Part shown: positions 20,524 through 63,200 of the stretch, piece after piece
Layout: each line of letters opens with the position of its first letter
How positions within the stretch are numbered: position 1 is the stretch's first letter
Assembly (NCBI RefSeq): GCF_000802205.1
Contig: NZ_CP012850.1
Coordinates: forward strand, 434,001-498,000
Direction of reading: 5' to 3'
From: Candidatus Nitrosocosmicus oleophilus
GTDB taxonomy: Archaea > Thermoproteota > Nitrososphaeria > Nitrososphaerales > Nitrososphaeraceae
Length of the DNA: 64,000 nt
Program-made: the position numbers and the translations under genes
Notes under the pieces: model-generated
Told to the model about the DNA's origin: nothing
The model's database searches: none
Seen by the model: the letters and a program-made list of their open reading frames with translations, nothing else

Positions 20524-21429
20524 TTATGGATGTTTATGTTGATGTTCATGTCGATGTTCATCGGTGTGTAAGTGGGGATGTGAGTGAGATACACCACCAT
20601 GGCTATGTGAATGATATATTTTCTTAAAGACAGCATATAAAGCTGTTATTCCAAAGGCCAAAGTAATAAACATGACGATAGTGGGACCAGATGAAGAATC
20701 CAAAAAGAAACTAGCGTACATGCCACAAAATGATGCAACCGATCCTATGATAATCGATAGAAATATAACACTTGAAAAATTATTTGATAACATCCTGGCA
20801 GAAATGGCTGGACCTACTATTACTGACGCGAGTAATGTTACTCCAATTGAAGACATTGAAACAATAATTATCGTAGCCAAGACAAATGAAAAAAGTAGTT
20901 CGATATGTGAAGTTTTAATCCCACTTATTTTGGCACTTTCGTTATCAAAAAAGGAAAAAACTAAGCGCTTATGGAGGAAAAAGAAGAAGGCACCTGAAAG
21001 TATTGTTACTGAAACAATGATATAAAGATCTTGTTCGGTAATGGCCAAAATATTTCCAAACAAAAGTGATTCGAAATTCCTGGTATACCTATTTGTAATG
21101 CTTACTAGTAACACTCCAAATGCAAAAATAGCGGTGGTAACCAGCCCTATTGCAGCATCAGGTTTAATTTTATTTCTTTTGCTTATTTCATAGATTACAA
21201 AAGAGGCCAAGTAGCTCCAAACAATTGCTCCAACATAATAGTTCAAACCTGCAATACTTCCCACTATTGCTCCTCCAAAAGCAGCATGCGAAAGGCCATG
21301 ACCAACATAACTTAGTCCTCTTAAAATAATATATACTCCAGCTAGGCCACAAATACCCCCAAGCAAAACTGAAACTATAACTCCCCTTACAAAAAATTCA
21401 TAATGAAAGGGTAACAGAAGATCAATCAA
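20524..21429 (-). CDS. Metal ABC transporter permease with His-rich tail
   Basis: ZnuB/MntB-type permease, 301 residues with about eight membrane segments and the family's GLSYVGHGLSHAAFGGA segment near 40-56. The last 30 residues are packed with histidine (HSHSHGGVSHSHPH, then HEHQHKHP), a cytosolic or extracellular metal buffer. It is the last gene of a binding protein-ATPase-permease series. Proximity to urease genes and their His-rich UreE makes nickel as plausible as zinc. Confidence 0.88.
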   Translation of the reverse strand: MIDLLLPFHYEFFVRGVIVSVLLGGICGLAGVYIILRGLSYVGHGLSHAAFGGAIVGSIAGLNYYVGAIVWSYLASFVIYEISKRNKIKPDAAIGLVTTAIFAFGVLLVSITNRYTRNFESLLFGNILAITEQDLYIIVSVTILSGAFFFFLHKRLVFSFFDNESAKISGIKTSHIELLFSFVLATIIIVSMSSIGVTLLASVIVGPAISARMLSNNFSSVIFLSIIIGSVASFCGMYASFFLDSSSGPTIVMFITLAFGITALYAVFKKIYHSHSHGGVSHSHPHLHTDEHRHEHQHKHP

Positions 21430-21439
21430 ATGATCTTCA

Positions 21440-22180
21440 CTATTTTATTTTGTAATCTGAAAGTCCATACGTTTTTAGAAGGTTATCTTCTTTAAGAATA
21501 TCTTGTGGACGACCTTCAGCGATCACATATTTATTAAAACAAATAACCCAGGGAGAACGATTGGCGATGTGAGTTATATCATGAGTGGATAAAATTACTG
21601 TCATACCATTGTTGCTGAGTGTTTTTAAAATATCAAATATTTTTTCTCTTGAAACATAATCTAGACCCGTTGTTGGCTCATCCAAAATGAGAACATCAGG
21701 GTTTCTAATCAATGCCCTGCCCAAAAACACACGTTGTTGTTCTCCTCCAGAAAGTGCACGAATGTGTCGTTTTTCATAGCCACTTAATCCCAATGTCTTT
21801 AAAGTATCTTTTATTTGATTTTTCAATTTTTTATCTAACCATGGAAGGTAGCTTTTGTAGTTCCATGATCCCATGGCTATTACCTCCTGTACAGAAACTG
21901 GAAAATTCCAATCAATAGTTTCTATCTGTGGAACATATCCAACAGACGGATAATAGAAAATTGAATCACAGTCATTGCAAATGTACTCGATATCTCCATT
22001 CCAAGGTTCGTAAATTCCACACATTAGTTTTAGTAAAGTGGTTTTTCCAGATCCACTAGGACCTACTATAGAAACAAATCGACCTCTTGGTATAGACAAA
22101 TTGACTCCCTCGACTACAAAATCATGATAGGTAAATCCATAGGATACACCAGTTAATTTCAGATATTCAAAGGAGCCCAT
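21440..22180 (-). CDS. Metal ABC transporter ATP-binding protein
   Basis: A 246-residue ZnuC/MntA-type ATPase: Walker A GPSGSGKT near 39-46, signature LSGGEQQR near 146, Walker B VLILDEPT near 166 and H-loop STHD. It has an unusual CNDCDS insertion near residue 66-71, just after Walker A, that could bind metal. It follows the binding-protein gene by 43 bases and precedes the permease by 10. Confidence 0.92.
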   Translation of the reverse strand: MGSFEYLKLTGVSYGFTYHDFVVEGVNLSIPRGRFVSIVGPSGSGKTTLLKLMCGIYEPWNGDIEYICNDCDSIFYYPSVGYVPQIETIDWNFPVSVQEVIAMGSWNYKSYLPWLDKKLKNQIKDTLKTLGLSGYEKRHIRALSGGEQQRVFLGRALIRNPDVLILDEPTTGLDYVSREKIFDILKTLSNNGMTVILSTHDITHIANRSPWVICFNKYVIAEGRPQDILKEDNLLKTYGLSDYKIK

Positions 22181-22223
22181 CTTAATGATATCATTTGAGA
22201 TGTTTATTAATATTTAAAAAAAA

Positions 22224-23249
22224 TTATGGTGTGTATGTATTCTCAGGATTTATGTTAGATAGGCTACTAGTATTTCCCCCTAATGGGACTACCATGTTCT
22301 CCATATTATCAAGCATCATTCCCACATACGTATGGTTAGGACTTGTTAAATTGCCAGGAAGTGCGTCATCTCTCAAGGTCTGTACAATATTTACACCAGC
22401 TTCTTTAGCGATTTGATCAGTGATTCTATTTGAAAAGACCTCTGATGCAAAGATAGCCGGTACCTTTTCAGCCTTTATTTGATCTATCAATTTGGCTATA
22501 TCAAGAGGTGACGGTTCTGAAAAATCTGATGGTTGTACAGCACCAATCACGGTCATGTTATACCTTGGTGCAAAGTATGCCCAAGAATCATGATAAGTTA
22601 CTAGCTTTCTATTTTCCGGCGGTACACTTTGTACGGCTGTTTTTATTCCTTCATCTAGCTGTTTTAGTAAAGCAATGTACTTTTCGGCGTTCTCTGCATA
22701 ATAAGCAGTATTATTTGGATCCATCTCGATTAACTTATCTTTAGTTAAATTAGCAAACTTCATAGCGTTTACTGGATTTAACCATAAGTGAGGATTAGGA
22801 TGACCCTGTTCTTTAGGAAAACTAAAATCAAATATCCAACCTGTTGAATTAATGGTACCATCAGCAAGTTTTAACAATTGAATGTCTGGTTTGTTCTTCA
22901 AAGACTCATTTACAACTTTTTCCATATTGTCCTCTAGAAACAATCCGTTAATGATAACAAGATCTGCATTGCTTAATTTTACTATATCAGACGGAACGGG
23001 TTCAAAGGTATGTGAATTTACACCCTCTGGGACCAAACCAGTTAGGTTTATTTTATCTCCTGCTATATTTTTAACAATATTAGTTATTGGAGATACAGAT
23101 GTAATGACGTTTAATGTTTTATTGGCTGCATAAACCGAATTCAGATTATTATCAACACTTGTGGAGGAGACCACCGCTAGCAAAGACAAAAGTATTGTAA
23201 ACGTAGCTACAAACATTATTTTGGTGTTTTTAAAAAAATTTTCTGACAT
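22224..23249 (-). CDS. Metal-binding protein of ABC importer (ZnuA/cluster 9 type)
   Basis: 341 residues. A signal sequence (residues about 10-40, IMFVATFTILLSLLAVVSS) exports it. The metal ligands of this family are visible: GVNSHTFEP, NPHLWLNP, TYHDSWAYF and FASEVFSNR. The His-rich loop between the first two sites seen in zinc proteins is short here (EQGHPNPH). It captures Zn, Mn or possibly Ni outside the cell for the ATPase and permease encoded downstream. The 98-base region upstream holds a TATA box and a palindrome. Confidence 0.9.
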   Translation of the reverse strand: MSENFFKNTKIMFVATFTILLSLLAVVSSTSVDNNLNSVYAANKTLNVITSVSPITNIVKNIAGDKINLTGLVPEGVNSHTFEPVPSDIVKLSNADLVIINGLFLEDNMEKVVNESLKNKPDIQLLKLADGTINSTGWIFDFSFPKEQGHPNPHLWLNPVNAMKFANLTKDKLIEMDPNNTAYYAENAEKYIALLKQLDEGIKTAVQSVPPENRKLVTYHDSWAYFAPRYNMTVIGAVQPSDFSEPSPLDIAKLIDQIKAEKVPAIFASEVFSNRITDQIAKEAGVNIVQTLRDDALPGNLTSPNHTYVGMMLDNMENMVVPLGGNTSSLSNINPENTYTP

Positions 23250-23347: not shown

Positions 23348-24283
23348 TCATATCTTTCTCATTTTGCTAAAAGAAACATTTAGAATATTTTTTCTTACTA
23401 TTCTAACTATAGAATAAATAATGTTACGGATATCATAAACAAATGAGCCTAACAACCGGATTAATAAACCATTTTCACCGGGCAATTTTGTACATCCACC
23501 AATAGCTTCTTTTGTTCCAGACAAAATTTCTAGTATTTCATTTTGTATGATGTTTATTTTATCCTTAGGGGTTAGAATATAAACACTCCCCAGTATTTCA
23601 TAATTATTGAATATTCCAAAAGATCGTATATTTTCCGCCTTGGGTTCTATTTTTGCTACATCAAGTAGTCTTAATTTATCATCTTGATTTACTGACTTGA
23701 CTTTCATATAGCATATATCGTATTCAAAAGACTCATTGCTAGCAACCCTACCAGGCGATAACATTTCAGAATAAATACAGGTAGCTTCATCATGAACCTT
23801 AATATTTGAAACCTGATAAAATCTGGAATCTCTAAATGGTATTATTTGATCAGGTATATATTCCAAGTAACAATCTTTATCAACATTCAAATTTATTATT
23901 TGAGATCCAAAGTTTTTATTCATCCTGTATATTCTAGTAGCACTTTGAGTAGTAACATGTGATTTAGCTGAATTAGTAAGTGTGATGTCAATTCTATACC
24001 TATCACCTTGTAAAACGCCTCCAGATGGAGAAATAATATAAACATAAGCCATCTCAGGAAATGTCTCTTCAAGATAAAGGGCACGTTTTATGCACAAAGG
24101 AACCTTGTAATATTGGTGTTTTATGGATGTTTTATGACTACTTGGATTATATTCTAGACAAAGGTGTAAAATACCTAATTTGCCAGACTGTCCTACTGCC
24201 AATTGTTCCAATGGATTATCGTAATTTAAAATTTCAGCAGGAATATTTTCAGGAGTACAATAGGCAAGATTATACGAACTCAT
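23348..24283 (-). CDS. ureD: Urease accessory protein UreD
   Basis: A 311-residue UreD/UreH scaffold that joins apo-urease and recruits UreF and UreG for nickel insertion. The family segments SPSGGVLQGDRYRIDI (about 84-99) and TTQSATRIYRMN (about 111-122) are present, as is DQIIPFRDSRFYQ near 145. It is the last gene of the ureA-to-ureD stretch, 16 bases after ureG. Confidence 0.92.
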   Translation of the reverse strand: MSSYNLAYCTPENIPAEILNYDNPLEQLAVGQSGKLGILHLCLEYNPSSHKTSIKHQYYKVPLCIKRALYLEETFPEMAYVYIISPSGGVLQGDRYRIDITLTNSAKSHVTTQSATRIYRMNKNFGSQIINLNVDKDCYLEYIPDQIIPFRDSRFYQVSNIKVHDEATCIYSEMLSPGRVASNESFEYDICYMKVKSVNQDDKLRLLDVAKIEPKAENIRSFGIFNNYEILGSVYILTPKDKINIIQNEILEILSGTKEAIGGCTKLPGENGLLIRLLGSFVYDIRNIIYSIVRIVRKNILNVSFSKMRKI

Positions 24284-24299: not shown

Positions 24300-25010
24300 T
24301 TAATTGATGGCTACCGATTTAGGAGGTGCATCAAATAATACGTCCTTTACGATTTGTTCTGCCACGGTTTTAACACCCTGACCAGTTTTGCTATTAACAA
24401 AAACATATGGTTTATCATTTCGAACAACTTTGGCGTCTCGCTCCATGATACTTAGGTCGGCACCTATGAAAGAGGCAATATCTATCTTGTTGATTACCAA
24501 TAAATCAGACGTTTCGATTCCAAGTCCACGCTTTCTTGGATATTTATCCCCTCCAGAAACATCGATGATATAAATAAAATAGTCGGCCAATGCAGGGCTG
24601 AATGTGGTTGTAATGTTATCACCTCCACTTTCAATTATTATCAAATCAAGATTGGGGTGCTTGGATTCCATCTCCTCTACAACAGATATATTAATTGAAG
24701 GGTCTTCTCTCACTGCAGTATGAGGGCAGCCTCCGGTAGCAATGCCTATTACTAGATCCTCTGGCATTAACCCTCTTTCGGTGGCAAGGTTTTTTCTCAT
24801 TCTATCGGCATCTTCTCTAGAAACAACATCGTTAGAAATAATTCCAACATTATATCCATCTTTCTTTAAAATAGGAACTAATTGTTCGATTAACATGGTT
24901 TTTCCTGATCCAACAGGTCCGCCTATACCTATACGTGGTATTCTTGAAAGTGCCACAAAAAAATAAAGGAAAAAATCAAGTAATAAACATTTTTGAATCC
25001 ATCTGTTCAT
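24300..25010 (-). CDS. ureG: Urease accessory GTPase UreG
   Basis: UreG is the SIMIBI-class GTPase that delivers nickel to urease. P-loop GPVGSGKT, then [10 protein letters not shown], the metal-binding CPH within GGCPHTA, ESGGDN and NKID motifs are all present. From the ATG at 25010 the product is 236 residues with an odd hydrophobic lead ([10 protein letters not shown]). A GTG at 24956 would give 218 residues starting [13 protein letters not shown], closer to the usual length, so the start is unsettled. With the longer start it overlaps ureF by 35 bases. Confidence 0.94.
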
Positions 25011-25725
25011 GATGCATTTGAATTATATCAAGTTGAGGAATAAATTGCCACATACTGTCAAGAGGTCTATTGATATTTTTTTTCACCGTTGAGAGAATTA
25101 CTGGTTTCATCTCGTCTATAAGCTTCTGCCCTTCAATATGTTGAAGAATACCCAATCTAAGAGCAGCTCCAATTACACTGACAACAAATCCATACAGCAA
25201 CATCAAACCAGATCGCTCTTTAGTTATTTTCATAGAATTGCATCCCAAGGCGTATGATAAAGGATAAACTCCCTTTGCATGCCCGCTCTTAATATTTTTT
25301 GAATAGAAATCCAAATATTCATCATTATGAATAAATGCAGAAACACATCTTAAGAACTGAATTCCTGATCTTGTTGAGGCCGAGCGAGTTTCATCTACCA
25401 GTCTCATAAAATAATATGTATTATCCAATTCTAATAACGAGATAAAGTCTTTCTTTTGAATACAATTATACACATTACCTACAACGCAGCAATCTGTAGG
25501 TCCTATTTGCTGTACAAGGTAAGCTTTGATGAAATCCGAAATCTCGCCGTACGTTAGCTTTCTGTTTTTATCATAAAACAATAATTCCAGTCCATTTGAA
25601 GTCGTGTACAAACCGGTTGGAAAAAAAGAATCAGATAATTGTAAGAAACTTAAATCCGCAATGGACGGGATTGATTCGATATCCCTATCAGTGTGCATGA
25701 ATGTCAAATCCCTGATCAGGTTCAA
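24976..25725 (-). CDS. ureF: Urease accessory protein UreF
   Basis: An all-helical 249-residue protein that acts with UreD as an activator of UreG. The conserved [21 protein letters not shown] segment (nucleotides about 25590-25650) and [12 protein letters not shown] fit the family. The ATG at 25725 overlaps ureE by 38 bases; an ATG at residue 10 (25698) would overlap by only 11 and is a fair alternative. Confidence 0.92.
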
Positions 25726-26422
25726 AAATGAGTTGCTCTGAACGAATTTCTATATAGTCTTTTAGATCTGACAACAATCTCAAAAATAGGTTTATTTCAT
25801 CTGGACTTTGAATAGGAAAAATTATATCACGATTTTCGATTTTTAGTGGCCTATGTAAGTTTCCAATAGTATGTCCTACCTTTAGTGCCACATTAGTGAG
25901 TTCATAATCGTTAGCTTGGTCATGCTTGTGTTCATGGTCATGGTCCTCATGTTCATGCTTGTGTTCATGGTCATGGTCCTCATGTTCATGCTTGTGTTCA
26001 TGGTCATGGTCCTCATGTTCATGCTTGTGTTCATGGTCATGGTCCTCATGTTCATGCTTGTGTTCATGGTCATGGTCCTCATGTTCATGCTTGTGTTCAT
26101 GGTCATGGTCCTCATGTTCATGATTATTGTGTAAATGATTTTTAATATTCAAGATAGCCACAAGCTCAGGAGATAATTTTATCACTATCATTTTAGTATC
26201 ATCAAGAAAAACTACATCACCGTCTTTAAGATGGGTTCTAGAAGGCAAAATAAATCCGATATCAGTTTCTTTGTCTGAAACTTTTCTCATTCTAACCTTC
26301 TCGGTTTCAGATCTCTGAATTACTACGTTCTCGACGGTATCTTTTTTAACAGACTCTTCATATTTTTGATGTAATTGTGGATCTTTCTTTATGTTTCCTA
26401 TAATAGTCGTAATGGTTAACAT
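25688..26422 (-). CDS. ureE: Urease nickel metallochaperone UreE with expanded His-rich repeat
   Basis: UreE carries nickel to UreG. Residues 1-90 form the peptide-binding domain, then a central stretch (about 101-167) consists of six exact copies of an 11-residue unit HEHEDHDHEHK. The metal-binding domain follows, with VGHTIGNLHRPLKI near 180. In most UreE proteins the His-rich segment is C-terminal and short; here it is inserted between the first domain and the conserved GHTIGNLH region and is very long. It probably stores many Ni2+ or Zn2+ ions. Total length 244. Confidence 0.9.
   Translation of the reverse strand: MLTITTIIGNIKKDPQLHQKYEESVKKDTVENVVIQRSETEKVRMRKVSDKETDIGFILPSRTHLKDGDVVFLDDTKMIVIKLSPELVAILNIKNHLHNNHEHEDHDHEHKHEHEDHDHEHKHEHEDHDHEHKHEHEDHDHEHKHEHEDHDHEHKHEHEDHDHEHKHDQANDYELTNVALKVGHTIGNLHRPLKIENRDIIFPIQSPDEINLFLRLLSDLKDYIEIRSEQLIFEPDQGFDIHAH
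25921..26118. repeat. Six tandem 33-bp units in ureE
   Basis: Six head-to-tail 33-base units starting at 25921, 25954, 25987, 26020, 26053 and 26086, apparently identical in base sequence. They keep the reading frame and encode HEHEDHDHEHK. Identity at silent positions means recent expansion or homogenisation. Confidence 0.95.
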
Positions 26423-26538: not shown

Positions 26539-26955
26539 TTACGTTTTATTGTCTCTACTGACGTTGTTATTAAGACTTTCTAGATCATTTGTGTTGTTTT
26601 TTGGATCATCTGGATTCGGATTCCTTATTTTGTTCACAGCGGTTATCATATTTTGTAAATTTTGAGTATAATCATACTTTCCGTAGTGTTTATAGTTGCT
26701 AGGATCTAATTCGGCAAATACTAACCCTCCATCAGATATTTCAATTTTTGAACCAACCTCAAATTTTTGAGCTACCACACATTGTCTTACCAAGTGATAA
26801 GGATAATCAAGATTGAGGTGAGATTTGGGATCAATCAAACCTGAAATCGAAAACAATTTTCCAAATTTGATAATTACGTGTCTAATTTGCAAAGGGTCGA
26901 CGATTAACATAGAATCATCAATATTAGATTTTTCAGTACAATGTCTAATTTGCAA
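26539..26955 (-). CDS. Unknown protein between thermosome and ureE
   Basis: 138 residues, no family recognised. A folded N-terminal part (about 1-90) with alternating hydrophobic strands (RHVIIKFGKLFSISGLID, KIEISDGGLVFAELD) and an Asn/Asp-rich disordered tail (about 108-138). The protein starts 6 bases after the thermosome stop and precedes ureE by 116 bases, so it is transcribed with them. Confidence 0.7.
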   Translation of the reverse strand: MQIRHCTEKSNIDDSMLIVDPLQIRHVIIKFGKLFSISGLIDPKSHLNLDYPYHLVRQCVVAQKFEVGSKIEISDGGLVFAELDPSNYKHYGKYDYTQNLQNMITAVNKIRNPNPDDPKNNTNDLESLNNNVSRDNKT

Positions 26956-26961
26956 TAGTAA

Positions 26962-28521
26962 TCACCTTTTTGAATCAGCAAGTGCTTGAGGATTGAGGTC
27001 ATCTGCAGCTAAATTCTTATCAATCCTTAAAACAGATTTAGCCATTTCACCTGATGCTTCCAATGCCATTGTTTTTACCAAAACTGGATCCAAAACACCT
27101 TTAGAAACCATATTTACAATTTCACCACTGTCGATATCAACTCCATAGCCATCTGGGGAAGCCTTAGCATTCATTACTTTTTCTAAACCGTTAAATCCAG
27201 CATTTGTTAATATTTGTCTCATAATACTTTCGAGTGCAGATGTTACCACTTCTAGGCCTACTTGCTCTAATCCACTGAGTTTGAGTTTTTTAATTTTTTC
27301 AATTATATGCAATTCGGCAGCACCACCACCTGGAACAATTCCATAATTTAATGCAGCTTCTGCAGCATTGATTCCATCAATTGTTGATCTCCATCTCTCT
27401 AACGATGTTTCTTTCGTAGAACCTGATATCAGCACAGTGATGATCTTCTTTCCTCTTCCATTTTCCAAATATATTATACCGTTATCCTCATCCTCGTATA
27501 TTTTCTCAGAAACACCAAGGATATCTTTATTTTTTAGATCATCTAGTGTTCGCACTGGTTTTGCACCCGTATATCTTGACAAATATTCTATTTCTTCATT
27601 TGAAATGTGGACCGCAAATAATCCCTTTGATACAAAAAGATCTTCGACTATTTGATCCACTTCAGGTGAAGCAATAAAAAGAGTATTTGCTCCCGTTTCA
27701 ACTATGGTATCAACAATTTTTTTTGATTTTTCCAAACGATCTTTTTCCATAGTAAGAATATCTTGATATTTACTATTTTCTTTGATCCACGACTCTTTTA
27801 CGGGTTTTAAATCCAATCTCAGAATTAGAATTTTCGAATTTTCAACTTTGCTTGGAAGTTCTGGATCTATTCTTTTTCTCTCCAAAACAATGCCATTAAA
27901 AATTTTATCCTCAATGTCTACTCTTCTTATTACCTGTACTGCCTTATCAAAATCATATAATCCGTTGTAAATCGCATCTTTTCCCACGGTACGTAACGCA
28001 TTAACTACCAACGTATGCAATACTCGACCATCCAATTTTGATGACAAGCTCGTTTTTACGATTTGATCGAGTTCAGGAGCATCAAGGTTTATCTTTATGG
28101 CACTTTTTTTTAGCAATTCGCATGAATGTTTTATACCACTTTCAATGCCTTCAACGACCTTAGTAGGATGCACCGCAAGTTCACGAATTAATCTTTTACC
28201 TTCTTTAATCATCTCGGCTGCCAAAATTACAGCCGTTGTTGTTCCATCGCCTACTTTTTGTTCTTGTCTTTCTGCAATTTCTACTATCATTCTTGCGACA
28301 GGATGAATTGCTCTCAACGAAAGTAATATGGTAACACCGTCGTTAGATACATGTCTATTCATTGATTGATCGATCAAAAGTTTATCCAACCCTTTTGGTC
28401 CTAGGGTGGTTCTCACCGTTTCAGCTACGGCCATTACCGCGTTTGAATTAGACTCTAAAGCATTGAATTCAATATTTTCAGCTATTGGTTTCCAAACTCC
28501 AAAATTTTGTGGCGAAGACAT
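26962..28521 (-). CDS. Thermosome subunit (group II chaperonin)
   Basis: A 519-residue CCT/thermosome protein that folds proteins in a lidded double ring. The ATP-binding motifs TLGPKGLDKLL near 38-48 and GDGTTTAVIL near 92-101 are intact, as is VPGGGAAE near 395. The tail (LADSKR) lacks the usual Gly/Met-rich end. It sits between ureC and ureE on the same strand, an unusual place for a chaperonin. Confidence 0.97.
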   Translation of the reverse strand: MSSPQNFGVWKPIAENIEFNALESNSNAVMAVAETVRTTLGPKGLDKLLIDQSMNRHVSNDGVTILLSLRAIHPVARMIVEIAERQEQKVGDGTTTAVILAAEMIKEGKRLIRELAVHPTKVVEGIESGIKHSCELLKKSAIKINLDAPELDQIVKTSLSSKLDGRVLHTLVVNALRTVGKDAIYNGLYDFDKAVQVIRRVDIEDKIFNGIVLERKRIDPELPSKVENSKILILRLDLKPVKESWIKENSKYQDILTMEKDRLEKSKKIVDTIVETGANTLFIASPEVDQIVEDLFVSKGLFAVHISNEEIEYLSRYTGAKPVRTLDDLKNKDILGVSEKIYEDEDNGIIYLENGRGKKIITVLISGSTKETSLERWRSTIDGINAAEAALNYGIVPGGGAAELHIIEKIKKLKLSGLEQVGLEVVTSALESIMRQILTNAGFNGLEKVMNAKASPDGYGVDIDSGEIVNMVSKGVLDPVLVKTMALEASGEMAKSVLRIDKNLAADDLNPQALADSKR

Positions 28522-28621: not shown

Positions 28622-30349
28622 TTATGCCATAAAGTATCTTTGTGCTAAAGTTAGTTCCTTTGCGGGATCAACAGTAGCGATCTGCCCGTCAATCTTTACT
28701 TCATATGTCTCATGATCTACAGTAATTTCTGGTGTTTTATCATTCCACAGCATGTCTTTCTTTCCTATACTTCTGCAGTTTTTAACAGCCAATGTAGTTT
28801 TTTCTAATCCTAGTTTCTCAGGAACACCAAGATCTAATGATTTTTTTGACATGAAGGTAAAAGAAGTCTTCTTTACAGCACGCCCCATGGCACCAAACAT
28901 TGGTCTATAAAAGACCGGTTCTGGTGTTGGCAAAGAAGCATTTGGATCGCCCATGATAGACCAAGCAATAAATCCACCCTTAAAGACCATTTTTGGCTTT
29001 GCGGCAAAGAAAGCATTGTTGTACATGACTATATCAGCATACTTTCCTACTTCAAGAGATCCAAGATAATCTGCGACACCATGAGTTATGGCAGGATTAA
29101 TGGTTGTTTTTGCAATATAGCGCTTTGCTCTTAAATTATCGTTGTCTCCTTCCTCATCTTTTAGTTTTCCTTTCATTTTTTTCATTTTGTCGGCAGTTTG
29201 CCATGCACGAATTACAACCTCTCCAATTCTACCCATAGCTTGACTGTCTGATGAATACATACTAAGAACTCCCTCATCATGCATTACATCCTCGGCTGCA
29301 ATTGTTTCGGCTCTAATTCTAGAGTCTGCAAAAGCGACATCTTCTGCAACACCAGGGTTAAGATGGTGACAAAACATGAGCATATCAAGGTGTTCATCAA
29401 TAGTATTAACAGTAAATGGCCTTGTAGGATTGGTTGAAGAGGGTAAAACGTTTGCTTCTGCTGCGATGGCAAGTATATCTGGAGCGTGACCACCACCTGC
29501 TCCCTCTGTATGATAGCTGTGGACAACTCTTCCATCGATGGCATTAACGGTATCCTCTAAATAAGCACATTCATTTATGGAATCAGTGTGTATTGCAACT
29601 TGAACATCAGTTAAATCAGCAGCACGAAGTGATGCATCCAAAACAGCAGGAGTAGTTCCCCAATCTTCATGATCTTTTAGTCCACAAACACCGGCTTCGA
29701 TTTGTTCCATTTGTGTGGCTAACGACGGATGAGAATCATTGCCTTTGCCCAAAAATCCATAATTCATTGGAATGTCCTCTACGGATTCTAACATCCTACT
29801 AATGTTAAATGTACCTGGAGTACATGTAGTAGCATTAGTACCATCTGCAGGACCAGTACCACCACCTATCATATTACATATACCATTACTGATTCCATCT
29901 ATGTACTGCTGAGGAGAAATCATGTGAATGTGAGTATCAAAGTGTCCTGGAGTACAGATTGTGTGTTCACCAGCTGTTGCCTCAGTGCATGCGGATACGA
30001 TTAGGTTTCTATCAACACCATCCATTACTAATGGATTTCCGGCTTTTCCGATACCTGCAATTTTACCATCTTTAATACCTATATCACCCTTCACTATCCC
30101 AATCACAGGATCAAGCACTACAGCATTTGTGATAACATAGTCCAAAGCACCTCCTGCACTGGTAACACCAGGTGTTTGAGCTTGACCATCCCGGAGTGTT
30201 TTGCCTCCTCCAAATACACATTCATCTCCATGGGTTATGAGATCCTTTTCAATCTCAATTAAGAGATCTGTATCGCCTAAACGAATCTTGTCGCCTGTAG
30301 TTGGACCAAAATGATCAGTATATTGTTTTTTTGTTACTTTTAAGACCAA
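28622..30349 (-). CDS. ureC: Urease alpha subunit UreC
   Basis: Catalytic subunit of urease (urea to ammonia and carbamate, binuclear nickel). Length 575. Nickel ligands are recognisable: HFDTHIHM (His pair, about 137-140), the lysine that is carbamylated in [19 protein letters not shown], the [12 protein letters not shown] segment, the flap MFCHHLNP and SSDSQAMGR. All catalytic residues appear to be present. ureB lies 12 bases upstream. 100 bases downstream of its stop the thermosome gene ends the contiguous urease structural block. Confidence 0.98.
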
Positions 30350-30361
30350 TAATATCCTCTC

Positions 30362-30736
30362 CTAATTACCCATTCCTTTAAAACCAAAGAACTTGGCTTT
30401 TTCCATTGCAGATTTGTTTATATTTGTTGATCTCATGCTTCCATTTGTTAAACCATTAAATCCAAAGCAAACTTTTGAACCTCCAAATTCACACAATTCT
30501 ACTTCCTTTGTATCACCTGGCTCAAATCTGACTGAAGTGCCAGCTGTTATGTTTAATCGATAACCAAATGCTTGCTCTCTTGGAAAATCAAGAACTTTGT
30601 TGATTTCAAAGAAGTGTGTATGAGACCCTATTTGACATGGTCTGTCACCAGTATGCTTTACAGTAATCTTTATGGTTTTTCTGTTTTCGTTGCAAGGTAC
30701 ATCGCCTTCAGATAAAACATATTCTCCTGGAATCAT
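30362..30736 (-). CDS. ureB: Urease beta subunit UreB
   Basis: 124 residues with the family's MIPGEYVLSEGDVPCN start, the VKHTGDRPCQIGSHTHFFE core and RFEPGDTKEVEL. A separate gene, not fused to ureA. Structural subunit of the urease trimer. It follows ureA by 64 bases. Confidence 0.96.
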   Translation of the reverse strand: MIPGEYVLSEGDVPCNENRKTIKITVKHTGDRPCQIGSHTHFFEINKVLDFPREQAFGYRLNITAGTSVRFEPGDTKEVELCEFGGSKVCFGFNGLTNGSMRSTNINKSAMEKAKFFGFKGMGN

Positions 30737-30800: not shown

Positions 30801-31103
30801 CTATTGAACTGGATCATGAACTGTAACTAATTTTGTCCCGTCTGGAAATGTAACTTCCACCTGTACTGTATGTATCATCTCAGGCACTCCCTCCATAACA
30901 TCCGCTCGTTTTAAAATATTTCTTGCAGACGTCATTAATTCGGCGACTGATTTTCCTTCTCGTGCTCCTTCTACAACAAAATTGGCTATATAAGCAATTG
31001 ATTCAGGATAATTTAGTTTTACTCCTTTCTGTTTTCTTCCCTCGGCAATTTGTGCTGCCGTCCAAATCATCATTTTTTCAATCTCTCTTGGGGCTAACAT
31101 CAT
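30801..31103 (-). CDS. ureA: Urease gamma subunit UreA
   Basis: 100 residues with [25 protein letters not shown], the [10 protein letters not shown] segment and the C-terminal [16 protein letters not shown], the standard gamma chain. It is the first gene of the ureA-B-C set. A TATA-like TCATATATATTG lies on the minus strand at about 31161-31172, and a 22-base palindrome 18 bases further upstream. Confidence 0.97.
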
Positions 31104-31217: not shown

Positions 31218-31808
31218 TCAGTAGTCAGAAATTTTAACAGGTAAACATGTCTTTAACCAATATAATGTTTTGTCATAGGGACCGTTTTTGCCAGTTGAAA
31301 GTCTGAATTCATATTTTTCCTTCACTGTATGAATGACAAGGACATTTTCATTTATAGCGGTACCAAGCATATTAGAAATCAAAGTTCTGGTATCAGGGTA
31401 AAATACCATTTTTTTTATATCAGGATATTTGATAGAAAATTCGTTAGACATTTTTGATCCTGCTGCTGAATCTTGTTCTTTAGAAATAAATGAATCCTTT
31501 ATCTTAATATCAGAGAATTTTATTTTTTCAGACAGAACATAATAAAGATACGGCCCAATTCCAGCAACAAAACCCGGATCTGTCATTTTTCGTAGCACAT
31601 TTTTTTTAACCATGATAATTCTAATCGGAGTAAATGTAAGAAGATAGTCAATCTTCATAGGTTTGCTTTTAATATATCCCGAAAGCCTCAACACAATAGG
31701 TTCGATATTTTGAGCGAGCATCAAATCATACAACTTCTTGATTTTTTGACTATCGGACATTTTTGAACTGGATTTGATTTTTTTCAGATTTATTTCAAGC
31801 TCGGACAA
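31218..31808 (-). CDS. Unknown protein between ureA and the urea channel
   Basis: 196 residues, soluble, alternating charged helices and strands (KPMKIDYLLTFTPIRIIMVKK; KYEFRLSTGKNGPYDK). It looks like a PH-like or other small beta domain, but I cannot assign it. Alternative start at residue 17 (MSDSQK). Position within the urea locus is the only functional clue. Confidence 0.7.
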   Translation of the reverse strand: MSELEINLKKIKSSSKMSDSQKIKKLYDLMLAQNIEPIVLRLSGYIKSKPMKIDYLLTFTPIRIIMVKKNVLRKMTDPGFVAGIGPYLYYVLSEKIKFSDIKIKDSFISKEQDSAAGSKMSNEFSIKYPDIKKMVFYPDTRTLISNMLGTAINENVLVIHTVKEKYEFRLSTGKNGPYDKTLYWLKTCLPVKISDY

Positions 31809-51203: not shown

Positions 51204-54200
51204 TCAATACGTCACAATCAATCCCTTTTCGAGGTATAGTCGGAGAAGATGGGCCGCTCGGGCTGGATTTGTAGTGATGTCTATGAACATGCCGGATAGT
51301 AAACCTCCATGGGTGCCAAAAAAATCTGCAAACGCATGCCGAGGACCTTTCCCCACTACGTCTCGTAAACCCAGGTATCCTCCTGGTTCTATATGTGGTT
51401 GAATCAGAGGATCCTGAGCAAATGTCATACGTGAAGCGCGTTCGACATATTTTCCTCGTGTCGCTCTGGCCAACCCACCGCGTCCAAGTGCCTGGTTTAA
51501 TTCTGCCGGGGATAGGAATCTACTTAGGACCGCGGTATCACCCTGTAGCAAAACATCGTCAAAGTTTTGAGCATGTTGTCTAGCGACCTGCTCTAATCTC
51601 TCAATGAGTTGAACTCGTCGAACTGCTTCAGATTGTGCTACCCCTGTCACGCTCCGTGCATGGCCCAGTATTTGTCGAGAACCGCCTAAAGCATTCTCAG
51701 GATTAAGTCCATACCTAGTCAGAGATTCTCTTTGAATCTCTGCAGCTTTTCCCCTAAATTGCTCCCATCCTTGGACCTTATCACCACCCGTTCTACTCCC
51801 ACCAGTTCCTCCCGGCGGGACTTTTGGAGGTACACCTGGTGATCTAGGTAACGAACGTATGCGTGGCATGTATCGTGTAGGTATGTATGGTGTAGCCGAT
51901 ATACCCATTGAAACAGTAAAGTCCAAATCTTCGCCAAATGAATGCGCCCACTCTTCACTGGCTCCCAATGCTTCCGCACCTGCAGAAGCACCTTTAGAAA
52001 ACAGAGTCCTCTCTTGTTCCCCGGTCCAGATTTGAGTCACTCCTGTAGAGGCATCATCTGCAGCTTTTAATCCAACTGCATATGCCAGCGGCGGAACTGG
52101 AGCAAGTAAACCGGCACCAATGCCTTCACTCACGCCCTGAAATACCCTCACTGCACCCATAGTCCTTATTGCAGGCACCGCCTCTCGCGCCGAAATTTCA
52201 GCTTGAACTTCAGACAAATATTCGTTCCAACCTGCTTCGGACAGTTCTGATATTGCTTCTCTACGATTTTTTTTAGCTACTATAATTCGTTTCTTGAGCT
52301 CGACATTTTCGCCGAGGAGGCGTGTAAGATTGGCTTTGGCAACCTGAATGTTGGCATGAAGGCGAGCTTGCTCAGCTGCGGCTGCAGAGCCTTCTTTTGT
52401 CTTGAGATATGCAGTTAACTCAGAGTCGATGCGTTTTTTTTCTCGGAGTAATTGAACGTATTCTTTCCATTCCTTGGTTGCATGAGGACGCCTGCCAGTG
52501 CCCGTAAGATCAAGTTTATATGGCACTGTTCCATGTATGAGGATTGGGTTTTGCTCTGATAATTCGAGCATATCTTCATCTGACAATGGCACTGTTCCAT
52601 GTATGAGGATTGGGTTTTGCTCTGATAATTCGAGCATATCTTCATCTGACAATGGCACTGTTCCATGTATGAGGATTGGGTTTTGCTCTGATAAAGATAG
52701 CACTTCTTCATCTGACAATGGCACTGTTCCATGTATGAGGATTGGGTTTTGCTCTGATAAAGATAGCACTTCTTCATCCGATATAGGAGGTACAATATAA
52801 TTTTGAATCGGGTCATTATCATCATTGTCGTCAGGTTTTGAGCCACTACGTTGTATATTCCATTGAAGGGATTGTACCTCTTTACTGTTAGTCGGTAGCG
52901 TCTGTTTTGGATTGACTGCTAAACTTGGCTGCTCGAGTCTTCTGCGAATCCAAACATAGGTTGCCGCTCCAAGGCCGCTTATAAACGTCCCATAGAGGTA
53001 CATGAATGCACCAGCACCTGGACTCCATCCACTTCCGGGAATCGCCCAACCTGAGCGAGGGTTGTAAGCACTGTTTATCAACCCACCTAGCCCAAAGCTA
53101 AACGGTCCAGCCTTAGGGCTGCTGAGCGCTCGGTCAAATGCGTCGAAGCCAACATTAAATAATGATCCGGCGATTCCACTCCAATTTAGTCCCGGACCGC
53201 TCGTCCAACCGCTGAAACCTGTCTTGCTCTGCTGCCAGATTTCACGGCTAAGCGCACCATATGATCCGGCGGCTGAGAAAGCAGTGCCTTCCAAGGCCGC
53301 TAGCCCAACGCTTTCCCAATCAATCCCTTCTTGGTTAGGAGCCCGTATGCCCATAAGTTGTCTTGTTAGATTGCCGGAAGCTGCACCAATGCCGAAGCTT
53401 ATAGGTATCGGCACATTAACGCCTGACAATATTGCTGTCACACCAACTTGGACCGCCAGGGACAACGTGTAGGCACCTATAGTCTCCCATATACTAGGTT
53501 CCTCTGGCGGAGGTGGTGGAATTACGATTGGGCGGTCGTTGCCAATTATATCAGCCATCCCAAATAGGTTAAAGGTATTATAAGTCTGAGTATTACGTAC
53601 GGCGGCAGGGATTTCATACGCTCTACCGAATTCGTTATCTGGTAAAGGTTTGAAAGGATCTTCGACGTCGGCGATACCGTTAGCGTAGGCAATCAGGTGC
53701 CATAGCGCACCATCACCGTAATTCACTTCAGCGATGTCGAACAAAGACTCGCCTTTTTGGACCACATGACGCGAAGTGCCACTAACAGAGACATCGCTTA
53801 TAGGAGTATAAGAGTAATCGTAATTCATCCCTATGGCAGGACGACCTATCTCAATAGTACCACCTGGCCAATATGGGGTGGCATATCGCTTTATGATAGT
53901 ATCAGCAAAATCAAATTTCGTCCCGTTAGCTAGGCGACCTATCCCTATAGTACCAACCATGCGATTACCAATATAGAAATAAGTCTGTTGTCCCTTTTTT
54001 TCATCTGGTAATCTGCCCTGAGAATTGGTCAGTATTAGGTCGGTATTTTTCAAGATTATTTTGCCTTCTGCATTGTAATCGTAGAGGCGATCATCGCGAA
54101 AGTAGGTAAATGGAAAGTCTGAGTCTTGTAGACCGCCCTCGCTCATGGAGGCGTCAGGATACAGCTGATCAACAGATTCCTTTGTAAGGCGACCCAAGGC

Positions 54201-57200
54201 ATCGTACTCCTTTATAGTTTTGAGATTAAATGTACGATCATGAATTTGCTTCACAACATACGTGCCGTTTTCGTAATTGTATGTATAAACAAATCTAGTG
54301 TTAACTCCTACATGATCAAAGCGGGTTGCAGTAAAATCATAATAGTTGAGCAACCCAGTACGCCTATCGTAATTATTTAGAATTGAGGTACTATTGACGG
54401 GGTCGAGTGCATCATATTTTGACGAGTGTATTTGCCCGTCGTCAAAATATGACGTGTTCGTAGTGCCCAACAAAATGGGAGCCGGATCAACCTCCATACT
54501 GTTAGGTGAGATCCAGTTACGAGCCCATTGTTGAATGCGCTTGACATCGCCGCGCAGGTTTACATCGCGCGTTGACTGCGTATGCCAGTGACCAGATCCG
54601 CTCTGATCTGTTGGTGGGATTTGGCCGTTTTCATTTATTATAACGACATTGGTATGACGGGTGCGCATTTCGATTAGGCGCAAGTGGCCAAGATCGTCGT
54701 ATGTATATCGCTGGTCACCCATGATGTCCCATTTACTGAGAGGGGGCAATCCCGGGCTAAAGCCCCGTCCAAAATACCTTTCAACCTCACTGCGACGACC
54801 CACGTTATCATAAAGGATGCGAACGCTATTCGATACCCTTTCCTTGAGTTGAATCGTTCCTTCGTCCGACAATACACCATTGGACACTAGCATGCGGCCC
54901 TCGGAGTCGTAATCGTAATAACTTTCGCTCGATTCAGGTTCATCGTTACCCGTATAGAGGAATTTGGCTTGAATGCGGCGAACGTTACCCCATTCATCAT
55001 ACGCATAGCGCAAGTCACACCTGGGACCCTCCTGTATGCTATATCCCTCGACTTTTGACATCCTCCTTTGAATGTCGTAACTAATGAGATTAATATGCGT
55101 GGATTCGTTGTCTTGGCGGCTTTCCGCTACTAACTGACCGTGTGTATCATAGCTGTAATAGGTTGTCTCTTCATTATTGAAATTGGTGTTTGGGTTGATA
55201 ACTATCTGTCTTATCAGTCCATTATCATGGTAAAAGTACCTAGTTATGGCGTTACCCACCGAGGCGTACCTGACCTCTCCAAAATCATTATATTCAAAAC
55301 TTCCGTTGCTACCAGGCTGTAGAATGCGCTCGATTCGGCCTACTATATAGTCCTCAGTTGATGCGATCCACCTCTTTTGATTTCCAGCGGTATCAATTTC
55401 CTCTGCTTTGTTGCCGAAGGGGTCAAATTTGCAGCTGGTCACCCTTCCCATCACATCACGCTGCTGGACAACCAAATCTCGTCCATCCATCCAGGTATAT
55501 GACCAGGGAGCATTTCCTATGTCAATAAAAGTTCTTGTGGCAAAACGGCGACTTGCTTGATCATATCGGAACGTCTTAAGATACGTACGCTTTACTGTGC
55601 CTGTTCCAACGTGACTGTTATATTCGCCGTCACCATTTGCATTTGTGGTACGTAGGACACCGTAGAAAAGCAGGTTGCCGTTACGATCATAACGATTGAA
55701 CATTACGGTGCCTTGTGCGTTGCGGGTGCCAAGCCTCTCGCCATAAATATTGTAAGCATATTCACTCTTTATGGTAGTCGCATCTATTTCCGCAATTAAT
55801 TGACCGACACTGTTGTACTCCTTATGTCGAGTTCGCGAGCTTATCAAAACTTCTGATTGAGGATCCCAAGCTTCATCGACTTCCTTGACGACATTTCCCA
55901 ATAGGTCACGAAATGTCCGTTTAGAGATCAAAGCATTACCCGTGATACCACTTTTTGAGACAAAACTTTGTGTTCCGAGGTGTTCGTATATAACCTTGTT
56001 GTTATCATCATACAAGTATCCACGATAAAATGGAAAACCAAGTGAAGGTTGGCCGTTAACGAATTCGTAGCCCCCTTCATCGGTGCTGAGGACGTTCCCC
56101 CAACGATCGAGAGTATAATCAGAGTAAGGAGTCACATATCCATATTCTGTTTCTGTGCCGGCCGCAACATCGGCCCAAAATTTTGGCCTTCGAATCATAA
56201 TAGTACGACCCAGTACATCATACTGATATTCCGTAATGCGTTTTGGGTACGTACCGTCAGTAACAATAGTATTGCCACGCCTTTCTTCTCGCGTGATCTG
56301 CCCAAGCAAGTTGTAAGAATAAATGGTATACCCATCACCAGCAACTTTACCAACCAAGTGACCCGCGTTGTCGTAGTCATATCTGGCTTTTCTGGCCGAA
56401 TTAAGCGATGCTGGATCTAGGTTACCAGGTCCCCATTTATATCGCTCTTCAACAATCTCGCCAAAAGCATTATAGCGAACAGACTTTCCACTTTGCATCT
56501 CTTCACTACCTTCTTGGTAGACATCTAGAGTATCAGTGAGCTGTCCAAGTGCATCATATACATAACGCCGCTCTATTCGATGTTTGTTAATTCCCAACGG
56601 CCCGAGTTGGGAGCGGATTGTTTGCGCCTCTCGGACTACTCTGCCTGCAAAGTCGTAGGAGCGATGTTTGACATAACCCTCCGCATCCTTTATGCTTACA
56701 AGGTTTCCTGCCGCATCATATCTGTTAACAATAAGTCGTCTATCTTCTCGATCTTGTAATGTGGACTGCTCTTGCCATACGGTCCGTCCGAATAGGTCGA
56801 TCTTTATGGATGTGACAAGTCTCTCGGAGATCTGGTCTGAGAATGGATCGACAGCCGCCTCTTCATTAGCAGCGAGTGGCGCTATAATCCGTGTAGGTTC
56901 GATTATCCTCACAGTGTGTCCCAGTGCGTTATAAGAGAAAGAGGTCACATTGCCACCTGCATCGGTTACAAGAAGCGGCTTCCCATATCCATCAAATGTG
57001 GTTGATAAAACTGTGGTCGCAACATCAGAATCCGGATTTATCCATCCCCCACCACCACCTTGGTCTCGATCCCAATAAACAACTCCGTGTTCAACACCGT
57101 TTGCATCGGTATATCTCAAGCCGAAGCGATCCGTGCGGATTTGTTGGTTAAGAGCGTTGTACACAAACCCAGTGATGCGGTTCATGCCATCCTCATTTCC

Positions 57201-60200
57201 GGTAAGCTCTTTTTGCAGTATCAGATTGCCTATTGGATCATAGGAGGTGATTGTGATATATCCAGCCGCATCGACACATCGAATTAGACGTCCCATTGTA
57301 TCTCGAGTATAGGATGTGTCTTGCCATTCAACAATGTTGTTAGCCCGGACTCTTTGTTTGATAACGTCGCCAAAAGTATTGTAATCGTAACGCGTTAAAG
57401 CAGCGTCTAGATCGCCTGACACAGAATCAGGATTTGGCCGATAGTAATTAGAGTGGCCTAGATTACCAGGAGTATGAGTTGAGTAAAACGAAGCTGTTGG
57501 GTGTGTAACAATCACCTTACGGCCGAGTTTATCATAACTTAGTCTTATAGTGCGTGCTAAAGTATCTTCCATTGCATTCCCATTTTCATCATATCCCCTA
57601 ATCAGTAACGGGTCGATCTCACCAGGAGTCCAATAGAATCCATTTTGAGGAGTGCCTGGGGATATAGTTACGCTATAACGAGTAACAGTTTCTTGTTCAC
57701 CAAACAAGTTATATGAATATCGGGTTACTTTCATAAGCGGATTGATCTCGTGAACTACACGTCCATGACAATCATATGTTTTCCACATATACTGAAATGC
57801 ACTGATATCCGTACGTGTGCCGATGTGGACCATATTACCCATCGAGTCGTAAGTTATTGAAGATTCGGGCTTGAAGCGAGTGGTATCCGGTTCAGGTTCC
57901 ACTGAACCTGTAACTATATCATAGTAACCGTTGTAGCGAGTTCCGGTGGGCCGACCAATCTTGTCGAAAGAATACTCCGTGATAACGGAATTGTTTACGT
58001 AATTAGCCGCCTCAATCTTACGTATCATATTTCCAAACGCGTCGTATTGAAATCGAGTCTCAATTATTCGGTTAGGAGAATCTGTGTTGCTCTCTTCGCC
58101 ACGCAACTTGAACTTTAGACTGGGTGTTGCCTCTAAGGTCTTTCTACCCTTGCGGTCGTAAGCATATACAAACTTGTTCCCATTCTTATCGATCCAACGT
58201 AAGTTGTCACCAAACCCATTGTATTCATATCGTTCAGTGTTTCCCAAAGCATCCACTGCGATAGTGAGCCTACCGGCTGCGTCAAATTCGCTAGCATGGC
58301 CCCGTGTGCCAGAATCACCGATTGCATGGTCCCCTCGAAGGATAATCATCTCTGATTCTGTCCTAAGAGTGTTGTCCGATAGTTTGAAATCGAAATGAGC
58401 GAATTCTGTCATCTGATCGAGACCATCATATTTTCTCTCGAGGAACGATAGATCGGCCATTATCTCAAAACGTATGCGTCCAGCGGCATCGTGTATATAG
58501 GTGGTAGTTCGATCGTTTGCAGGATCCAATACTAAAGCACTCTCGATTAAAGATTTGTCAAACTGCATCAAATCAATAGGCAAAGCATAGTCAATCCGCT
58601 GAACTAGTTGTCCCAAGGCGTTATGGATTTTCTTCGTCACATGGTACTTACCAACTGGTCCTCCGACACGAGATAATCTAGCTTGCAGCTCCTCCACTAT
58701 GAAAACCTGCCTGCCTGCTGAATCATAGAAAAGCATTGACAGACGATCTTTTGTACGGTCAGCTACCGTTAGAACAGAAGCTGCCAGGTCGGCCTCAACG
58801 TATGAAGAAAGATGACCCACTGTGGCTGCATACAATCGACATTCAGTCATCCGGCCCAAGGAGTCATAGCGCCGTTCTTCAATAGAGTGCTTGCCAGCTG
58901 ATCCGACATTTGGTTCGATAACGTTTATTGTAAAACGTAACTGTCCAATAGTATCATATACAAAATGCTGTATACGATTAAGAGGATTACTATGATCTAC
59001 AGCGATGGCTATCGCACTCTCAGTATATTCAGCCAGGGTAAGAGGCAATGCGAACTGAACAGTTGTGGTCTTGTCACCAAGAGCGTCATAGGAGTTCTCA
59101 GCAATACAACCCAATGCATTGATAGTAAAGCGCAATCGATTCAGCCGGTCGTAGACAAAGTGGGAGCGTTGTACATTGGTCAGTGAAGCAGGTGCAACAT
59201 CGTTATAGCCTAAAGTCGCCAACTTATCAAATACATCTTGCTCAAGTATACCCCTTGTTGGTGTTGTGTCGTTCGCAGTTATCCACGCTTCAGAAATATA
59301 GCGATCGTATTTGCGCGATTCAATAACGTTATCAAAGGAGTCATAGCGATTCTCTGAAACCGTCCATTGTCCTGGCTTGTCTGCTTCAAGTACGAATCTA
59401 TTTCTTCCTTCAATATCGTTAACATAATGACTCTTACGGTCATTTGTAGATGTAGTAGCATTCACGGCAGCTTCAATGGTTAGATAGTTGAAATTTGCAA
59501 GAGAACCTATGGCATTTACACATCTAGTCATCCGGATTATGCGACCAAATGTATCATAATCTTGCTTTATTACCTGATGTTTGTTTTCATTCAATGTCTG
59601 CAAGGCGTAAATAGCCCGACCCAAGGCGTTATAGGCATAATGATAAACTCTGTCCCGCGTTGAATCACCAGCATTCCGCATTATGGCGTCGACCGTGGCC
59701 TTGTCAAATGCATCCAACGCCACAGTTGTAGCGTATTCAGTACTCTTTACCACTTGTCCGAACGAATCGAACTCTTTGGCGCCCACCTTATACATGAGCC
59801 TATTACCATCTGGCGACACAGTTTGTAACTGATAAACTTGACGACCCCCCTGATCGAACACAAAGTATAAAACCCTATCTCTTTGCAGGTCGCCGGTCCC
59901 AACGGCACCTGCTATAGTTTCCTCATTTATAGCCAAGAGCGGCACGGCACTCGCATACGAGGTAATGTGGACAAGCTGACCTAATGCATTCATATCCTGT
60001 CGACTTACCTGGTAAAGAGGATTTTCCCCTTCCACCGAAAGCCTCAGTACATTATAGCGAATGTTATCTAATGCATCATGAACATGCTGTTCGATACGAT
60101 TCGCAGAATGGTTACGATATGGGATAACTTCCGCCGAGATGGCCTCTTCAGAATATTCTCCCAATTGTGTTCGCTGTGCGAATCTCTCAATACAGATTGT

Positions 60201-63200
60201 TCTACCAAGTCCATCAAAGGTATGCTCAGTGATAGAGCCCAATGCGTCTACAGTAAAACGAATCTGGTTGACTTTATTATACACAAAGTGCGTAGGACGA
60301 TTTCTGGGATCGGATTGCAAGGGGTTTACTGCCGCAGCGATTGTTCTTTCGTCATATTGAGTTAGTGTCGACAGGTGGAGGGACGAAGCAAAGCGGGTAT
60401 TTGTAAGCAAATTGCCATTAGCATCGTATACATTTTCTGTGACGTTACCAAGTGGATCAATTACAAAGCGAAGACGCCCTTCTAGATCGTAGACATTATG
60501 GGTAACCTGGTTTTCATCGTCATTTCGCAAAGAAACGAGTACGGCAGTAACATCAGCTTCCGTCAAAGAATCATTGGTAAAGGAAGCCCGTCGTGCGAAC
60601 CTTGTTGTTGTTACGACATTGTCCAATGCATCGTATATATTTTCAGTCACCGAACCTGTAGCAGTGATTGCAAAGCGAAGACGATTAGCACCGTCATATA
60701 CACGACGGATAATATAGTCATATTTGGAGGGCAAACCCTGTAATGCTGCCGAAATGGCGCTTTCGTTGTACTGTAACAACTCGGGCCGTTTGGCCCAGAG
60801 CCTGGTCATAACTATATTACCTAGCGAATCATAGATAGTCTCCTCAATAGAACCCAATGCATTGATAGTAAAGCGCAGTTGGTTCACTGCATTGTAAGCA
60901 TAATGCGTCAACCTGTTGTCTGAGTTATTGCGGTCGACCGCAGATTCGATAGCGATTTCTGTATACTCTAGTAGTTCAGGGCGAATGGCAAACTGCAGTA
61001 TTGCTACGACGTTGCCAGATGTATCATATAATCTCTCATTTACAGATCCAAAAGAATCAACTGTAAAGTGCTGGCGGTTGTTACCATCATATGTCATGAA
61101 TGTGCGCTGCAAGCCCACCAAACTAATAGGATCGTCGTCATCATATCCCAAAGTACGTAACATCTGTTTGATTTCCTCCACTCTAATACCAGACAAAGAG
61201 GGCTCTTCTAGAGCTGAAATAATGGCTTCAGGTGTAAACCTGTCGTATGTACGCTTTTCAATAATGTTATAGTCGATGTCGTAACGATTCTCATCAACGA
61301 TCCAACCTGTGGTGGCGTCTACAGATTTAAGACTAAAACGTAGTTGATTATCACCGTCATATACTATATGGGTGCGTTTATCGCCAGGCATGGGTGCAGG
61401 GTTTGTGATTGAATCAATGGTCACATCACCTAGTCCTTCAAGAGCGATAGATGGTAGCCGATCGAGGTAGTGATGACTGTAAACCATTTGGCCTTTTGCA
61501 TCATACCGGCTATCAACAACCTCTCCCAATGCACTAATGCTTCTCGTAAGATGGCCAGTCGCATCATAGATCCGCCATGTGCTGTTACCGTTGCGATCAA
61601 TAAGGCGTGTCAGATGACCAGCCACATCGTAACGATAATGCGTTACAAGGTTGAGTGCTCCTGAAGGGCCAGCATTAAACACAGAGTTTGGTGCAAATAT
61701 TTCTTTTAATCGTCGGCCCAGATTGTCAAATTCATATAATATCACATGCTGATTAGGGATCGCGACGGTCCCACGTGCGACAGAGATAAGACGATCCAGA
61801 TCATCGTATGCATTTGTAAAACAAAGCTGTAACCCATCTGTTGCTGACGCATCCAAAACGACTCTTCTCATACGACCTTTACGGTCATAACTATATGTTG
61901 TAAATCGTTCTATGGCAGTCCCATTCGCCTCGGTAACCTCAATTTGCTGGCCGAAAGCATCGAACCTAAATAGTGTAACTAGATTCATGCCCTCTGGGTC
62001 CACCTGCTTTTTAACTACATAATTCCGCTGATTGTAACTGAAGCGAGTCACCGTCCCACGTGCATCTATCATCGCTATCTTACGGCCACTCTTATCGTAA
62101 ACTGTTTGAGAGATTATTTGACCCAGAGGATCAACTATGCTGGTCGGCTTGCCATCTAGGTTATATTCATAATATATAACATTACCTCGTCCATCTGTGA
62201 GGCTTCTCGTTTCACCGTGCCGTGTCTTTGAAGTAGTTATTTGCCGTCCTTCTGGAGTGGTTACCATCACGATACGATTTGTCTCGTCATATGTATACAC
62301 AGTCTCGTTTCTAAGTGCATCAATCAGGCGATACTCGCGACCGAAAGCATCAAAATCAGTGCGCATTACATGTTGCAACGGATCTTTTATCTCAACGCTT
62401 CTACCATTATCAGGATAAAACTTTGTAGTTACCCAACCCAATGCGTCAATCGATCGAATAATACGACCGAAAGCATCAAATTCCAACCGTGTATTTGAGT
62501 TAATTCCCCCCACATCTTCGGTCTGCGATACTAAGTGTCCGACCAGATCGTAATCGAACTGGCTGGTAGTGCTCTGACCTTTCTGAGTAGATTGCACTCT
62601 GGCAACCAACTCTTGAAAGTCGTTATAGATATTCTCTGTAAATCCTTCTTCTGAATCTTCCTGTTTTACTAGCTGGCCACGACGATCATATTCATACCGG
62701 GTGATCTGATCAGCACTTGGGTTGGCAATCAAAGACAACATATCAAATAAGGATTGATCGGCCAATCCACCACCCTCACCACTTCCGCTATCTCTATAGA
62801 GTAACTGATTCATGTTAATATTGTTCAGAAGTGCAGCATAGCGATGAACCTGTTCTGGTTGCCCGAAACTGTTGTAAAAAGTTTCGGACACTTCACCGGC
62901 AAGACTACTGTCCTCCTCATATCCAACGACATTAACCGAATGGGTTTGTCGATTCTCACGGTCATAATAATAAATAGTCAAGTTGCCATTAGCATCAATG
63001 CTTCGCACCAATTGACCTAGCGTGTCGTATGCGTAGGAAGTACCATATTCACGTATTGCCTGCTCTATTCTCTCCGGAGTTGGGTTCGCCCCTAGCCAGG
63101 CATCGCCTTCGCCTCCCAAACTCGCCGTTACCTCGTTATAGGCGTTATAAAAAGTACGCTGTGCGCGTTCTTCGTCAGTACCTCTTGCTGTGATCACACG

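Follow-up and report, generated by a model that had tools for sequence, protein, structure and literature searches.

Urease cluster and adjoining metal importer

The window analysed here, a 64,000-bp stretch of the Candidatus Nitrosocosmicus oleophilus genome (a single contig of 3,430,706 bases, 99.75% complete), contains a urease cluster in the order ureA, ureB, ureC, a thermosome subunit, a 138-aa ORF, ureE, ureF, ureG and ureD. The named genes are on the minus strand. The genes ureA (30801–31103), ureB (30362–30736) and ureC (28622–30349) were assigned from their ORFs and from a gene order conserved in relatives, and the thermosome subunit gene between ureC and ureE (26962–28521) is syntenic in Nitrosocosmicus and Nitrososphaera. 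The 138-aa ORF (26539–26955) and another of 196 aa (31218–31808) have no Pfam match and are syntenic in the same two genera. The gene for the nickel metallochaperone of urease, ureE (25688–26422, 244 aa), lies in the same operon as ureF, ureG and ureD. Judging from the ORF list and the sequence, ureF (24976–25698) probably starts at an ATG at 25698 that overlaps the end of ureE. The ureG product (24300–25010; cobW/HypB/UreG, E = 8.9e-31) is without a His-rich N-terminus, and ureD (23348–24283) was named from gene order and sequence, its place between ureG and the ABC genes being conserved in the genus. A scan of promoters and terminators gave a result no better than chance level.

Adjoining ureD are the minus-strand genes of a ZnuABC-type metal importer (20524–23249) with a ZnuA-type component (E = 5.4e-76), an ATPase and an ABC-3 permease (E = 1e-58). 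These genes come after ureD, on its strand, in the window and likewise in all examined Nitrosocosmicus contigs except G015, where they were not found within the stretch read, and G017, where the contig ends. The permease (20524–21429) has a His-rich C-terminus, HSHSHGGVSHSHPHLHTDEHRHEHQHKHP, that is conserved among intact Nitrosocosmicus orthologues and is also present in other Nitrososphaeraceae; in three genomes of other genera (G062, G042 and G026) the tailed orthologue lies roughly 10–38 kb from ureE. The other ABC-3 permease encoded in this genome has no such tail. Searches of the genome for the nickel transporters NicO and CbiM gave no match. A [NiFe]-hydrogenase large subunit was not found either, and its absence makes urease the likely main nickel client. 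The importer beside ureD is a candidate source of metal and a candidate nickel importer; its family name says zinc.

An internal array of histidine-rich repeats in UreE

The window UreE matches the UreE_N family (PF02814) with E = 8.5e-12, which passes the cut-off. Its gene contains a perfect tandem array (25920–26122, minus strand, as are all ureE features below) of a 33-bp unit present in 6.15 copies, each encoding EHEDHDHEHKH. TRF reported these limits with period 33, 6.2 copies, 100% matches and a score of 406, and an exact-period script found the same maximal period-33 run of 203 bp, with six in-frame units at 25922–26119. The original prediction had described six identical 33-bp units of eleven residues with about five His each; this is borne out, the coordinates it gave (25921–26118) being one base off the codon register. 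Each unit holds exactly 5 His, for a count of 30 in the array, 33 in the whole loop (residues 94–168) and 39 in UreE, and the 33 loop His include 25 HxH motifs. A perfect array of 203 bp far exceeds chance expectation. With the tract as query, no second His tract of this kind was found in the same genome, in a search where low-complexity filtering might mask some. Pfam matches to Nop14 and CDC45 were dismissed as artefacts of composition.

Predicted fold of UreE and position of the loop

We modelled the window UreE as a monomer with AlphaFold2, using an alignment of 72 archaeal UreE. Block-mean pLDDT is mostly above 90 in the core and falls to ∼51–53 for residues 101–170. The model has the two-domain UreE fold with a ferredoxin-like metal-binding domain. 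The N-terminal domain, which also has the UreE_N match, spans approximately residues 1–83 (26174–26422), and the subsequent elements (E86–93, H169–187, E194–196, E199–203, H209–216 and E224–231) are ordered as in the UreE metal-binding domain. All 23 PDB matches of the model at E ≤ 0.001 are UreE, and the model resembles the solved structures from H. pylori, P. mirabilis, K. aerogenes and S. pasteurii (best E = 4.9e-10). The UreE fold was recovered by this structure comparison even though the UreE_C family (PF05194) has no HMM match anywhere in the genome, a miss that probably arises because the loop interrupts this domain and its sequence is divergent. A phmmer match to SlyD in the PDB (E = 1.9e-4) reflects His composition, and SlyD was dismissed as a homologue.

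In the model, the His tract is a disordered loop (residues 94–168; 25919–26143) between strand 1 and helix 1 of the metal-binding domain. By DSSP, strand 86–93 (26144–26167), the first of this domain, stands directly before the loop, and helix 169–187 (25862–25918), its first helix, stands directly after it and runs into the GHTIGNLH motif (residues 183–190; 25853–25876). The tract is thus inside the protein ahead of this motif and not at the C-terminus, as originally predicted. Across the 72 archaeal UreE, G187, N188 and H190 are invariant and the GH of the motif is nearly so. Judged by the motif, H190 corresponds to His96 of K. aerogenes UreE, the conserved Ni ligand (PMC7055735). The C-terminus carries only a short conserved HxH, a nearly invariant HAH (H242 and H244; 25691–25699), in place of a His-rich stretch of the K. 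aerogenes type.

Loop variation and repeat turnover among relatives

To compare relatives we counted the residues lying between strand 1 and the start of the LTNVA helix, an interval that extends a few residues beyond the structural loop 94–168. In one Nitrosocosmicus clade (G012–G015) this loop has 14–16 aa with 0–1 His, and the order of the urease cluster is unchanged. The other Nitrosocosmicus clade ranges from 17 to 81 aa and from 5 to 33 His: 17 aa with 5 His in G006, 22 with 7 in G017, 22 with 8 in G011, 28 with 7 in G018, 28 with 6 in G007, 29 with 6 in G008, 32 with 6 in G005, 35 with 13 in G010, 59 with 26 in G009 and 81 with 33 in the window. The region is compact and without a tract in Nitrososphaeraceae outside Nitrosocosmicus, the readable UreE of other archaea are likewise compact, and by profile alignment the loop of S. 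pasteurii UreE is still shorter. Compact outgroups favour growth of the loop in the second clade over shrinkage in the first. In one further genome, the MAG G016, the reading frame of ureE is broken just ahead of a long tract by a single additional T within a run of T (L071:9385–9410); this is probably a sequencing error and less likely a true loss of the gene.

A tree of UreD, UreG, UreF and the UreE core places the window with G016 (support 99) and G009 nearby (weak support, 35). Identity to the window locus is 95.5% over 13.9 kb for G016 and 91.3% for G009. The tract periods are 33 bp in the window, 24 bp in G009 and 18, 24 and 42 bp in G016, all of them multiples of three. The different periods in the two nearest long-tract genomes indicate that the copy structure turns over fast. 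At 4.5% divergence from G016, an array dating back to that split should show a few mismatches among its copies; the window has none, and by this rough estimate its array was formed or homogenised afterwards. The recent origin that had been read from the identity of the copies is therefore upheld, and the variation in copy number anticipated among strains is here observed between species.

Expected metal capacity and probable dispensability of the tract

UreE of K. aerogenes binds ∼6 Ni per dimer; removal of the tail lowers this to 2, and urease is still activated (PMC7055735). For P. mirabilis UreE the count is 5 Ni with the tail and 3 once it is removed (PMC13044922). These published values correspond to ∼4 Ni for the 20 tail His of a K. 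aerogenes dimer and 2 Ni for 16 tail His in P. mirabilis (PMC13044922). At these ratios the 66 loop His of a window UreE dimer would hold about 8–13 Ni, and the dozens of ions first proposed are an overstatement. With 33 His and 25 HxH motifs in the sequence, binding of Ni or Zn is a natural expectation, and the loop could bind Zn, Cu or Co as well as Ni.

N. franklandus (PMC4830249), N. arcticus (PMC6657660) and N. agrestis (PMC8573960) are reported to grow on urea, as are Nitrososphaera viennensis and Nitrososphaera gargensis according to citations in PMC4830249; N. exaquare produces nitrite from urea (PMC5398378). Among the genomes assigned to these urea users, none exceeds 6 His in the loop. 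The assignment of G005 to N. agrestis SS is firm, and the others are inferred (G007, N. franklandus; G008, N. exaquare; G006, N. arcticus; G042, Nitrososphaera viennensis; G026, Nitrososphaera gargensis), as is that of G025 to Nitrososphaera evergladensis. Relatives with a short tract or none use urea, which argues that the tract is not required for urease and suggests that it is dispensable for urease activation. The original prediction had named ureolytic relatives lacking the repeat as evidence against it; such relatives largely exist and count against a requirement, and they leave a buffering role unrefuted.

Proposed role of the loop

We consider it probable that the tract serves an otherwise ordinary UreE as an accessory loop for holding metal, probably nickel, and that its length drifts freely while its His are kept. 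In favour of this reading are the place and disorder of the loop, the UreE fold with its conserved GHTIGNLH and C-terminal HxH residues, the retention of His across tracts of different repeat units, the extra Ni taken up by bacterial His tails, and a urease cluster that adjoins a metal importer in a genome where urease is the likely main nickel client. About 33 His per monomer, mostly alternating with Asp or Glu and some Lys, would form a flexible cluster of low affinity. The loop would collect several Ni(II), probably 8–13 per dimer, or other divalent metals if these are abundant, and hold them near the dimer-interface site at H190, from which metal would pass to UreG and urease. We infer metal binding, a preference for nickel and a buffering role; what the analysis establishes directly is the sequence, its position and variability, the disorder of the loop in the model and the conservation of the core. 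The tract would act as the C-terminal His tails do in bacterial UreE, but from a site ahead of the helix running into the metal ligand. Length would drift by in-frame gain, loss and homogenisation of repeats, with His content retained, because urease maturation does not need the loop. A counterpoint to the accessory-loop reading may be seen in the sequences of the clade G012–G015, all of which have 0–1 loop His and yet the same urease cluster order.

The alternative that survives best, though we think it unlikely, is mostly neutral repeat drift, in which slippage or unequal recombination expands and contracts a His-rich seed that a disordered loop tolerates, and length brings no benefit. The 100% identity of the array copies, the three different periods in three near relatives, and the range of 17 to 81 aa among close relatives beside the compact loops elsewhere in the family are what such drift would produce. 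Against it, His codons in the tracts never change to Gln, whereas the spacer codons vary freely. In five tract blocks, with the window unit counted once, 70 of 70 CAN codons are CAY (His) and none is CAR (Gln), while the GAN codons of the spacers comprise 24 GAY (Asp) and 30 GAR (Glu). The spacers also differ by lineage (HD, HE, HK, HN, HR and HS), and His is retained at high density throughout alongside these several residues. Third-position changes present at the spacers and absent at His support selection for His, and this support stops short of proof because duplicated codons are not independent. A His-rich seed under neutral duplication also remains His-rich, which counts against the codon argument, and the in-frame tracts indicate only that the ureE gene is kept.

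A general detoxification role, in which the loop would buffer zinc, copper or surplus metal and not nickel for urease, is improbable. His- and Asp-rich sequences take up many divalent metals, Cu, Co, Zn and Cd all bind to K. aerogenes UreE lacking its tail (PMC7055735), and the neighbouring importer is of the ZnuA family, but the host protein is the nickel chaperone of urease within the urease cluster. An assembly artefact, by which the copy number would be wrong or the array false, is very improbable: perfect short repeats are prone to miscounting, but the genome is one nearly complete contig, 203 bp fits inside ordinary reads or read pairs, and independent assemblies of relatives have long His tracts at the matching site.

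Comparison with known histidine-rich systems

The closest counterparts are the UreE of K. aerogenes and P. mirabilis, which share with the window UreE the chaperone role, the fold, the interface His and a flexible His-rich extension from which binding of additional Ni is expected. Their extension is a C-terminal tail with 10 and 8 His, respectively, whereas that of the window is an internal loop with 33 per monomer, built of perfect 33-bp repeats in which His alternates with mostly acidic residues. The UreE of H. pylori and S. pasteurii, which lack a His tail, and the compact UreE of other Nitrososphaeraceae have the same core fold, the GN-H motif and one or two C-terminal His, but a short loop without an internal His tract. 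Hpn, Hpn-like and the SlyD tail are, as in the window UreE, His-rich low-complexity metal-holding stretches tied to nickel enzymes; they are separate proteins or terminal segments, in contrast to a loop inside the UreE metal domain. HypB of rhizobia has a His-rich nickel-binding stretch as well. In one UreE from a bacterial plasmid (Providencia), the His stretch is C-terminal. We found no paper on an internal His tract in UreE in the literature searched. Its novelty is judged from the solved structures, the survey of archaea and this literature, which together cover a part of all known UreE.

The relatives provide a natural series of otherwise very similar chaperones, in which one loop contains from 0 to 33 His and with which the role of His-rich stretches on nickel chaperones can be tested, a question left open by the removal of the K. 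aerogenes tail without loss of urease activity. Urea is an ammonia source of soil ammonia-oxidising archaea, and the supply of nickel for their urease appears little studied; the urease-linked importer is a testable candidate for nickel import. More speculatively, and with considerable doubt, Nitrosocosmicus may have a nickel relay in which the His-tailed importer hands metal to the reservoir of the UreE loop beside the interface site, and lineages may tune their nickel capacity quickly through changes in repeat number.

Another tandem repeat in the window lies in a 4261-aa ORF (51204–63989) that has many YD/RHS-type repeats and extends nearly to the window end. Its unit is 66 bp (22 aa), present in 3.7 copies with 96% identity at 52520–52760.
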